Of a stretch of DNA of 64,000 bases, positions 19,694 through 22,958 are shown piece after piece. The DNA lies in the NCBI GenBank assembly GCA_017795045.1, contig CP051244.1:1873541-1937540 (forward strand), in the 5' to 3' direction. Position 1 is the first letter of the stretch, and each line of letters starts with the position of its first letter. The position numbers and the translations under genes were made by a program. Source of the stretch: Allomuricauda sp. (lineage in GTDB: Bacteria; Bacteroidota; Bacteroidia; Flavobacteriales; Flavobacteriaceae). Below the pieces are notes generated by a model. It searched no databases. It was given only the letters and a program-made list of their open reading frames with translations, and was not told the DNA's origin.

Positions 19694-21565
19694 TTAGTTG
19701 CTCGTATCTGGGACAAGTACGCCGTCCAAGACATGGATCACACCATTGATGGCCTGTACGTCAACGGCATCAATACCTATGCCCATATTTCCTGAACCAT
19801 CGGTCACATCGGCTATATTGTCTCCTGTTCCAGGCAGGTTGATGGTAATGGCATCCCCTTCCAGGGTTGTGGCCATGATACCATCGGTTAAATCCCCGGA
19901 ACGTACATTAGCGCCTGCAACAACGTGGTGCTGTAGAATTGGAATCAAATCCGCTTCGGCCGGAATCGCTGGTAGTGCGGCAAAAGCATCATTGGTTGGG
20001 GCAAATACGGTGAAGGGGTCATCTCCAGCTCCATCTTGTGCCGAGAGAACACTCACAAAATCCGTACTGGGAGTAAGCTCGGTCAGTGCCTGTACCAAAG
20101 TAGAGAAATTAGGGTCTGCCACGGCAAAAGTCACCACAGTTGGAAGGTCGATTACCGCATCCACGGCATGGATTACCCCGTTGGTGGCCACAATGTCGGC
20201 GATAGCAACATTACTCACTCCATTTAAGGTCACCCCATCATCCGTATTGATGTACAAGCTTAAATTTTCATCCGTATCAAATTCTGCAGCGGTGTTCACA
20301 TAGGAGTTGGTCAATCCGGAAGAGAAGGCCGAAGCTCCCACAATCACGTGATTGGAAAGAATAGCGTTCAAATCGTTGGAGTTGGGATTGGTAAATGCTG
20401 CAAAAGCATCATTGACCGGTGCAAAAACGGTAAATTCTTCTTCTTCGTCGGACAGCAAATCCGTAAAGGTGGTGTTTCCACCATCCGTTAGGGCGGCCAA
20501 AAGAGAAGTAAGGTTTGGATTGGCCACGGCATGGTCTACAATATTGGGTAGATCAATAACGGCATCCACTACATGAACCACTCCGTTCAAGGCTTTCACA
20601 TCTGGAGTGACCACGGAGGATACCCCATTAAAGGTTACACCATCCGATGTGTCAAAGAAAATACTGATATTGGCATCTTGGGCTCCTCTTGCCAAGGTGG
20701 TGGTGTATCCAGAACCAAGACCTGTGAGGTCTGTACTGTACAAAGTACCCTCAATAACGTGGTTCAATAATATCTGGGTAAGTACTTCCACAGGGACATC
20801 TTCCAATGAAGCGCCATCCAAGAAAGTTTCAAAGGCCTCATCGGTTGGGGCGAGTACGGTAAAAGGACCGTCTCCCCTAAGCGCATTGGGCAAATCACCA
20901 TCTGCCGCCATAAGGGCAGCCACAAGATTTTCAAGATTTTCATTGCCTATGGCCAAATCCGTGATGGGAACCAAAATAATGTCCGCCAATTCGTCCAAGA
21001 TGGCTTGAGGCAGTAATACCTTATCTATAATATGTACCACTCCATTGGAAGTCTCCACATCTGCAGTAGTCACTTGGGCAGCTGTGCTGGTGGCATCGGA
21101 GATGAACACACCTCCATCGGTGCTTACGGTCAAGGTAGAGCCTTGAAGCGTGGTAATGGTCTGTCCATTGCTCAGGTCGGTGGACATTGCTGCGGTTCCA
21201 CTTACTACATGATAAGTAAGAATCACTGCCAATAAGTCTTGGAGCTGCTCTGAGCTAAAGTCATCCAAGGAATCAAAGCCGTCCAGTTGGGCCAGCAAAT
21301 CTGAAAAAGCAGCATTGGTAGGTGCAAAGACCGTGAAAGGCCCTTCACCACTCAAAGCACTAACCAAGTCATTGTTGGCGCTTTCATCGGCTTTTTGTAG
21401 GGCACTTACCAAGCTGCTCAGTTCTGCGGTGGCTTGTGCGGCTTCCACAATGGTTGTTGTGGTTTCTTCAGGAGGGGTCATTCCATTATCATCGTCCGAA
21501 CAGGATACGAACAATAAGGTAAGAATCATTAAGGGTAGTCGAATACATCTAATTAGTGCTTTCAT
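19694..21565 (-). CDS. Fasciclin (FAS1) lipoprotein with four FAS1 domains
   Basis: 623 aa. The lipobox FVSC followed by SDDD (acidic residues after the cysteine, as in surface-exposed flavobacterial lipoproteins) ends the signal peptide. Four FAS1 domains follow, at about 38-190, 195-335, 340-475 and 478-620. Each carries the H1 box as FTVFAPTNAAF, FTVLAPTDEAF, FTVFAPVNDAF or FTVFAPTNDAF, and the H2 box as GVVHIIDKVL, GVVHVVDAV, GVIHAVDAV or GVIHVLDGVL. FAS1 domains mediate adhesion at cell surfaces. In many bacteria such genes are linked to light or stress regulons, but nothing in this neighbourhood proves that. The gene is single, with two terminators behind it and a striking array of phased repeats in front. 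Confidence 0.93.
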   Translation of the reverse strand: MKALIRCIRLPLMILTLLFVSCSDDDNGMTPPEETTTTIVEAAQATAELSSLVSALQKADESANNDLVSALSGEGPFTVFAPTNAAFSDLLAQLDGFDSLDDFSSEQLQDLLAVILTYHVVSGTAAMSTDLSNGQTITTLQGSTLTVSTDGGVFISDATSTAAQVTTADVETSNGVVHIIDKVLLPQAILDELADIILVPITDLAIGNENLENLVAALMAADGDLPNALRGDGPFTVLAPTDEAFETFLDGASLEDVPVEVLTQILLNHVIEGTLYSTDLTGLGSGYTTTLARGAQDANISIFFDTSDGVTFNGVSSVVTPDVKALNGVVHVVDAVIDLPNIVDHAVANPNLTSLLAALTDGGNTTFTDLLSDEEEEFTVFAPVNDAFAAFTNPNSNDLNAILSNHVIVGASAFSSGLTNSYVNTAAEFDTDENLSLYINTDDGVTLNGVSNVAIADIVATNGVIHAVDAVIDLPTVVTFAVADPNFSTLVQALTELTPSTDFVSVLSAQDGAGDDPFTVFAPTNDAFAALPAIPAEADLIPILQHHVVAGANVRSGDLTDGIMATTLEGDAITINLPGTGDNIADVTDGSGNMGIGIDAVDVQAINGVIHVLDGVLVPDTSN

Positions 21566-21585
21566 GGGATTGTTGTTTTAAAAGT

Positions 21586-21658
21586 GTTTAACATTACGAA
21601 TATAAAGTTAAACAAAATAAATTAATTCTGTTTAACAATATTTATAAAAAGTTTAACA
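21586..21658. promoter_or_regulatory. Phased GTTTAACA repeat array upstream of the fasciclin gene
   Basis: Four octamers, GTTTAACA (21586), GTTAAACA (21607), GTTTAACA (21630) and GTTTAACA (21651), start 21, 23 and 21 bases apart, i.e. two helical turns. They surround a minus-strand -7-like element CGAATATA (21597-21604; TATATTCG on the gene strand). This placement covers the transcription start, the -10 to -30 zone and the upstream region, as expected for a cooperatively bound regulator. Confidence 0.65.
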
Positions 21659-21741
21659 AAATGGATTTTGATTTTGTGCTGAAGGTTACGATTCCAATTT
21701 TGTGGGCATGTCCCACAGTAGTTTAAATGCCTGTTATTTTG

Positions 21742-21749
21742 TAATTTTG
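21742..21749 (+). promoter_or_regulatory. -7 promoter box TAATTTTG for mnmA
   Basis: Exact TAnnTTTG match 18 bases before the mnmA ATG at 21768. It rules out the longer upstream frame start, which precedes it. Confidence 0.6.
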
Positions 21750-21767
21750 CATCTTATTGATCATGCT

Positions 21768-22958
21768 ATGAAAAAGGTGGTTATCGGACTTTCCGGAGGA
21801 GTGGATTCAAGTGTCTCAGCCTATCTCTTAAAAGAACAGGGTTACGAGGTTATTGGCCTTTTTATGAAGAATTGGGTAGATGATTCCGTAATCCTATCTG
21901 AGGAATGCCCATGGGTAGAGGATAGCAATGATGCACTCATTGTTGCTGAAAAGTTGGGGATTCCATTTCAAACGGTAGATTTGAGTGCAGAGTACAAAGA
22001 GCGTATTGTGGATTATATGTTCAGTGAATATGAAAAGGGAAGAACTCCTAATCCCGATGTGCTGTGCAATCGCGAGATAAAGTTTGATGTCTTCCTGAAA
22101 ATTGCACTACAGTTGGGTGCCGACTATGTGGCCACGGGCCATTATTGCAGAAAGGGCACTCTAAAAAATGCGGATGGTACCGAAACTTACCAATTATTGG
22201 CAGGGAAGGACGCAAACAAGGACCAGTCCTATTTTTTGTGTCAACTTTCGCAGGAACAACTTTCCAAAACCCTGTTTCCCATTGGGGAACTGACCAAGCC
22301 CGAGGTGCGAAAAATTGCCACTGAGAACGATTTGATCACGGCAGATAAAAAAGATTCCCAAGGCCTTTGCTTTGTGGGTAAGGTGCATCTGCCCGAATTT
22401 CTACAACAAAAACTCAAACCCAAAAAAGGGGTAATCGTTGAGGTCCCCCATACGGCCTCACAGTTTTCGGTAACGGCCCCAAGCTTTCAAAACAAGCAAG
22501 AAGAGCTGGCATTTAATGCGGAAAAGCCCATATATGCCCAAACTGATGGAAAGGTGGTAGGAGAACATCAAGGCGCCCATTATTTTACCATTGGGCAACG
22601 GAAAGGTTTAAATGTAGGAGGTACCAAGGAACCTTTGTTTGTGATTGAGACCGATGTGGACAAGAACATTATTTACACCGGGCAGGGGAAAACCCATCCC
22701 GGATTGTATCGCCATACCTTATTTGTTAAAGAGGACGAATTGCATTGGGTACGCCCAGATTTGGCCTTGGAGGAAGATGGGACCATGGAAGTCATGGCAA
22801 GGATACGGTACCGGCAACCCTTGCAAAAAGCCACCTTGTACAAAACAGAAACAGGGTTATACGTGGATTTTGAAGAAAAACAATCCGCCATTACCGAAGG
22901 TCAGTTTGTGGCTTGGTACATTGATGATGAATTGGTGGGGTCAGGAGTGATTTCATAG
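21768..22958 (+). CDS. mnmA: tRNA-specific 2-thiouridylase MnmA
   Basis: 396 aa from the ATG at [11 protein letters not shown]. It thiolates the wobble uridine U34 of Glu, Lys and Gln tRNAs. Seen: the PP-loop GLSGGVDSS at residues 7-15, the catalytic cysteines in [12 protein letters not shown] and in GLCFVGKVH, the tRNA-binding YVATGHYCR, and the beta-barrel end with [12 protein letters not shown]. The longer 418-aa reading starts upstream of the promoter box and adds a stretch with no family similarity, so it is rejected. It is divergent from the fasciclin gene. Very secure. Confidence 0.96.

Follow-up and report, generated by a model that had tools for sequence, protein, structure and literature searches.

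A conserved inverted-repeat dyad over fasciclin promoters of marine Flavobacteriaceae is a candidate operator of a CarH-like MerR-family repressor

Results

The fasciclin locus and its array of GTTWAAC boxes

In the window (the whole stretch of 64,000 nucleotides that was analysed), a fasciclin gene and a divergent mnmA gene are separated by an intergenic region that carries a repeat array. The features of the locus are as follows.

19694..21565, minus strand: fasciclin gene; its 623-aa product has a lipoprotein-like signal and four FAS1 domains (Pfam PF02469 matched in 4 stretches, E 1.8e-92)
21585..21614, no strand: proximal candidate operator dyad TGTTTAA-N16-TTAAACA, an exact match to TGTYTAA-N16-TTARACA
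21597..21604, minus strand: -7-like promoter box TATATTCG, read from the sequence, within the gap of the proximal dyad
21629..21658, no strand: distal candidate operator dyad, formed by boxes A and B and departing from the motif at one position
21768..22958, plus strand: mnmA (tRNA 2-thiouridylase), divergent neighbour (Pfam PF03054/PF20259/PF20258 on ORF 21702-22958; ATG assigned by eye)

The fasciclin product, which is 96% identical to its F. olearia counterpart and so places the window in a Flagellimonas/Allomuricauda (Muricauda) relative, matches the four-domain FAS1 lipoprotein named in a preliminary description of this DNA, its signal (LLFVSCSDDD) being assigned by eye. The ATG lies at 21565 on the minus strand, and the first box of the array lies 20 bases upstream of it. 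The divergent gene is an unlikely target of the array, its start being about 110 bases away; an mnmA-like ORF also lies beside the fasciclin gene and array in two other genera (loci L141 and L018).

The preliminary description had reported four near-identical octamers beginning 21, 23 and 21 bases apart, and the same spacing was obtained here for four GTTWAAC boxes centered at 21589, 21610, 21633 and 21654. The octamer GTTTAACA starts at 21586, 21630 and 21651, and GTTAAACA, with one mismatch, starts at 21607. Because GTTWAAC equals its own reverse complement except at W, no true direction can be assigned to the octamers. The array is real and beyond chance: four of the five GTTWAAC matches in the window fall within 21566-21768, and none of 200,000 simulated sequences (first-order Markov model from that same stretch) contained four boxes, while 14 contained three. 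Across the whole window, octamers with up to one mismatch were below expectation (47 versus a mean of 71.5).

Bacteroidetes promoters have a -7 consensus of TAnnTTTG. In the consensus of 43 Muricauda-type fasciclin promoters, a TATnTTTA-like stretch occupies the -7 position between the proximal arms, and no good -33 box was identified at the fasciclin promoter. All four boxes lie about two helical turns from one another, and the proximal dyad straddles the -7-like box; the preliminary description had one octamer abutting this box, which at 21597-21604 is enclosed by the two arms of the proximal dyad.

In the 3.755-Mb genome, GTTWAAC pairs separated by 11-19 bases comprised three overlapping pairs, all at the fasciclin array, and one further pair of 18-base period inside an ORF; since the backward pattern used as a control gave five matches per strand, a lone pair is not rare. 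An exact triple (12-18 bases between boxes) was found in five of 397 family genomes compared with one of 397 for the control, which gave none in our own genome. The carriers were our own genome, a relative in the same genus (L016) and a member of another genus (L018), both with the triple before a fasciclin gene (beside mnmA in L018), together with L015, where it precedes an unrelated gene, and G077, where it belongs to a dispersed repeat. The L015 triple (positions 546-593, genome G207) lies 30 bases upstream of a secreted-protein-like gene. In G077, arrays of 22-base period with up to five copies occur at several places (L019, L021 and L023) and have the look of a dispersed repeat; no fasciclin-like ORF lies beside the arrays at these three of its five loci. 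Across the family, arrays of the exact octamer are thus uncommon, and the unit that is conserved is a dyad.

A dyad is conserved at fasciclin promoters

To score conservation, 77 fasciclin loci were obtained from the best 80 of 461 candidates, and 76 were scored because one (L079) was cut by a contig end. With ORF starts recomputed, a dyad with at most one mismatch and a gap of 16 or 17 bases was present within 170 bases upstream of the gene at 65 of 76 loci. The boxes are therefore conserved in orthologous promoters, the opposite of what the preliminary description had named as counter-evidence. Among the 11 loci lacking such a dyad, two have one with two mismatches and nine have none. Counted by gap across the 76 loci, a gap of 16 occurred in 62, of 17 in seven, of 18 in one, of 20 in two and of 21 in one, and no dyad with a gap of 10-15, 19 or 22 was found upstream of fasciclin at up to one mismatch. 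In the same 729,408 bases, gap-16 dyads with up to one mismatch were concentrated near the fasciclin start (100, versus 18 elsewhere). The corresponding numbers were eight versus six for gap 17, ten versus three for gap 8 and five versus four for gap 9; gaps of 10-15 and 18-28 gave at most four matches in either place.

On the fasciclin gene strand, promoters of Muricauda-type species read TTTTGTTAAA / TTAAACA / TTTTGTTTAA / TTAAACAA, and those of Cellulophaga, Arenibacter and Sediminicola read TTTGTCTAA ... TTAGACA. The GTCTAA/TTAGAC versions of the Cellulophaga type indicate that the arms are inverted. In a pile-up of 43 Muricauda, Allomuricauda and Flagellimonas promoters, the most conserved stretch is the proximal dyad (arms at 21585-21591 and 21608-21614, lettered C and D along the gene strand), and the A and B boxes are likewise conserved. 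These alignments favor reading the array as a pair of inverted-repeat dyads, TGTYTAA-N16-TTARACA, over four equal octamers; the octamers of the preliminary description are real boxes, and it is their standing as equal units with an orientation that was not borne out.

Dyads precede photoprotection and stress genes

A search for exact dyads with gaps of 14-18 bases in 14 genomes, selected for their fasciclin loci, yielded 47 matches versus 26 for the backward control. In our own genome there were three versus four for the control; thus, number alone is no proof of this genome's sites, and gap, place and conservation count instead. By gap, 33 of the 47 had 16 bases, eight had 17, five had 14, one had 18 and none had 15. 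Eleven of the 41 gap-16/17 dyads are fasciclin promoters, the source of the motif itself; with these removed, a hand count gave 26 of 36 with gap 16, four with gap 17, five with gap 14 and one with gap 18. Flanking sequence was examined for 35 gap-16/17 dyads (the 41 minus six fasciclin promoters already examined), of which 34 were intergenic, the sole in-gene case being in L150, and 33 overlapped an ORF start slightly or had one no more than 160 bases away. Both of the gap-14 dyads checked (two of five) lie inside ORFs, and the gap-18 dyad is intergenic, before a 175-aa ORF.

The three exact dyads of our own genome all have gap 16 and precede the fasciclin gene, an SRPBCC-photolyase operon (L118:3501-3530) and the bcp/nth pair, where the dyad lies between nth and bcp (L119:3501-3530). 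The two other FAS1 genes of this genome have no exact dyad. Among the 14 genomes, an exact dyad was found at the SRPBCC-(SDR)-photolyase operon in six (SRPBCC being assigned by eye, with no Pfam match), at the divergent bcp/nth pair in seven and at TetR-ABC1 in four; in relatives, dyads precede carH-crtI, TetR-ABC1, photolyase and peroxidase genes. Further targets include genes for a GHMP kinase, glutathione peroxidase, 6-pyruvoyl tetrahydropterin synthase, FAD monooxygenases, a DoxX-like protein and a second TetR. A genome-wide search for such company had been proposed earlier, and it was found: our own genome has dyads before its photolyase operon and before a peroxidase/DNA-repair pair, and relatives have them before carotenoid and stress genes as well. 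Dyads lie directly upstream of the starts of carH-crtI, the photolyase operon and bcp, and the -7-like box lies inside the fasciclin dyad, so that overlap with the promoter is predicted.

CarH-like MerR genes accompany the dyad

Of the 14 dyad-bearing genomes, 13 have a CarH-like gene, the exception being our own assembly, and a dyad precedes or flanks this gene in 16 of 17 cases examined. In all seven subtype-II loci (Cellulophaga, Arenibacter and kin), a CarH-like MerR gene points away from fasciclin, and the space between the two genes holds dyads. The subtype-I gene lies before crtI in Flagellimonas, Maribacter and Ulvibacterium, and, at loci that extend far enough, before crtB too (names assigned by eye). 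A gap-16 dyad with two mismatches was found at nine of ten subtype-I carH-crtI promoters examined, a scoring that left out those of Arenibacter, and no dyad was found at the Sediminicola promoter (L198). The distal arm is exact in these dyads, and the two mismatches arise because the proximal arm, ATGAACA, overlaps the start codon. At L181:5109-5138 and homologous carH starts, this arm encodes Met-Asn, fusing operator and coding start. Together, these comparisons show that a conserved double dyad covers the fasciclin promoter region and that photoprotection genes and CarH-like genes have the dyad in common with it.

The fourth base of the arm follows the MerR subtype. It is T in 46 of 48 arms from genomes with only subtype I and C in eight of eight from genomes with only subtype II, and genomes with both subtypes have nine T-type and nine C-type arms; these counts cover gap-16/17 dyads outside our own genome, with one in-gene gap-17 match of G405 dropped, and arms that come from one genome or from related species do not count as independent. 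A tree of 22 proteins groups the seven of subtype II in one clade with support of 1.000.

PF13411 (MerR_1) and PF02607 (B12-binding_2) were above cut-off in all three CarH-like proteins scanned, and T. thermophilus CarH chains were among the best PDB matches for both queries. The key CarH residues given in PMC11796333 are W131, E141, H142 and H177. The W-x9-EH and E-x-H-x2-G motifs are present in 22 of 22 CarH-like proteins. The full motif E-x-H-x2-G-x41-SxV/T-x22-27-GG, as named in PMC8156234 (E-x-H-x2-G ... SxV/T ... GG), was found in none of the 22 with spacings of 39-43 and 20-29 allowed, and B12 dependence is unsure because the SxV/T...GG half is complete in none of them. NCBIfam NF052513 (CarH equivalog) was the best family match for both proteins compared, at 67.2 and 97.6 bits, far below its cut-off of 400. 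Because of the incomplete motif and the score under the cut-off, we refer to these proteins as CarH-like rather than CarH.

The presumed regulator gene was not found in the assembly

As the preliminary description had noted for the window, no regulator gene was found there, nor was one found in the assembly: searches with PF02310, PF13411 and three CarH-like protein queries (two of them with a positive control and one without; PF02607 left out) did not find a CarH-like gene, and the only MerR_1 match over cut-off is an ordinary 109-aa protein. Within the genus, 69 of 71 genomes have the gene, and the other genome that lacks it is 79% complete; our own assembly is one contig of 3.755 Mb and is 92.5% complete. 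A 12.7-kb block, in which carH, crtI, crtB and an aconitase-like gene were recognized by eye among others, is kept in all four relatives searched, and in our own genome it gave just short or paralogue-like matches among the 40 of 51 candidates scored. The TetR gene, which lies 35-39 kb from carH in four relatives, was also not found.

Weighing the alternatives

Two other kinds of binder were considered. A TetR-type protein (TetR_C_23) whose gene accompanies that of an ABC1/UbiB kinase might read the dyad, with the CarH-like MerR gene merely another of its targets. TetR proteins usually bind palindromes, and all 11 TetR promoters scored have a gap-16 dyad with at most two mismatches. We nevertheless regard this as rather improbable: the TetR gene was not found in three of the 14 genomes, including the dyad-keeping G406 and G409 (both possibly incomplete), whereas the CarH-like gene is missing from our assembly alone and the C/T change in the arm tracks the MerR subtype. 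Less probable again is an unlinked factor such as a LytTR-type response regulator. LytTR-type regulators bind direct repeats about 21-22 bases apart, a value that the 21-23-base spacing fits, and an unlinked reader would agree with an assembly that keeps the sites without a CarH-like gene; however, the targets and neighboring genes point to the CarH-like protein, and the direct-repeat form of this explanation was dropped when the GTCTAA/TTAGAC versions showed inversion. That the boxes are chance matches in AT-rich DNA, or belong to a mobile or intergenic repeat family that has no part in regulation, has a negligible probability. The arrays of G077 do resemble such a family, but the preference for gap 16, the location at promoters, the conservation beside the same genes and the simulations all argue otherwise.

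A separate question, which concerns this strain only, is whether the CarH-like gene was truly lost, leaving the array an orphan operator and fasciclin no longer under light control. The joint lack of the CarH-like gene, TetR and the 12.7-kb block in a one-contig assembly is what true loss would produce, but the block also carries aconitase-like and other core-looking genes (by eye) and is kept in the relatives, the assembly is incomplete, and the three dyads of this genome are still exact. True loss is thus unlikely, though of all these alternatives it is the one we would least readily dismiss, and a sizeable stretch is probably missing from the assembly instead.

Discussion

The reading that we favor, at a probability of roughly 80%, is that the array is a candidate double operator of a CarH-like MerR-family repressor that has a winged-helix DNA-binding domain and a B12-binding domain, with binding predicted from the motif and its gene neighborhoods, and that light would relieve the repression. 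A MerR-type regulator had been suggested in the preliminary description; such a protein, refined here to a CarH-like one with a predicted B12 domain, is the best-supported binder. In the dark, the CarH-like repressor with adenosylcobalamin would bind both dyads cooperatively and would block RNA polymerase at the fasciclin promoter. Light would break the cobalt-carbon bond and the repressor would release the DNA, after which the cell would produce the fasciclin lipoprotein along with carotenoids, photolyase, thiol peroxidase (Bcp) and endonuclease III. Expression of the surface fasciclin is thus probably induced by light. In Flavobacteriia, such control is plausible given that Chryseobacterium lacus is yellow in the light and white in the dark, the regulator being only guessed at in PMC7064467.

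We also lean, with less assurance, towards a wider proposal: that marine Flavobacteriaceae have a CarH-like lineage that recognizes half-sites set as inverted repeats at a distance of two helical turns, in place of tandem 11-bp repeats, that its light-defence regulon (carotenoids, photolyase, Bcp/Nth, TetR-ABC1) includes the fasciclin lipoprotein, and that the half-site (GTTTAA or GTCTAA) and the recognition helix (HTIRIWEKRY or HTLRKWESRY) co-vary. No title or abstract naming this operator or a flavobacterial CarH regulon was found in a search whose coverage excluded most subscription papers, and the main text of PMC11796333 contains neither "bacteroid" nor "flavobacter". An unexplained repeat would thereby become a light-regulation operator code that can be put to the test in a group of non-phototrophic marine bacteria, a surface adhesion protein would be tied to light, and the two natural operator/regulator pairs (GTTTAA, GTCTAA) could be used to study DNA choice by CarH-like proteins.

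Comparison with known systems

Fasciclin has been tied to photooxidative stress in Azospirillum brasilense (PMC10949492, citing Dubey 2021), where control is by the RpoE-ChrR sigma/anti-sigma pair rather than by a candidate MerR-type operator as here. A MerR-like protein also takes part in the photooxidative (blue-light) response of the MerR/ChrR system of Vibrio cholerae (PMC5241685), although this is a different phylum and the likeness concerns the protein. For the Myxococcus CarA operator, two inverted repeats, one over the -35 and bound cooperatively by two dimers, were once proposed according to PMC9304148, which itself favors direct repeats; CarA lacks W-x9-EH (PMC8156234), and its operator is likened to ours by description, not by sequence.

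The closest comparison is with CarH/LitR of Thermus thermophilus, Bacillus megaterium and Myxococcus xanthus. The known CarH operators, as PMC9304148 describes them, consist of 11-bp direct repeats in tandem. Tandem repeats of the form nnnnTnnACAn were not found at the fasciclin promoters: an 11-base same-strand TnnACA spacing occurred once in 43 promoters, in which spacings of 44-45 bases occurred 82 times, of 21 bases 36 times and of 24 bases 19 times. The flavobacterial candidate instead has an inverted repeat with a 16-base gap and arms about two helical turns apart, its proteins have an incomplete SxV/T...GG half, and its dyads also precede fasciclin, photolyase, bcp/nth and TetR-ABC1 genes. 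Shared with CarH/LitR are the MerR_1 and B12-binding_2 domains, the W-x9-EH and E-x-H-x2-G motifs, a gene that lies beside carotenoid genes in many of these genomes, and a putative operator that overlaps the promoter.
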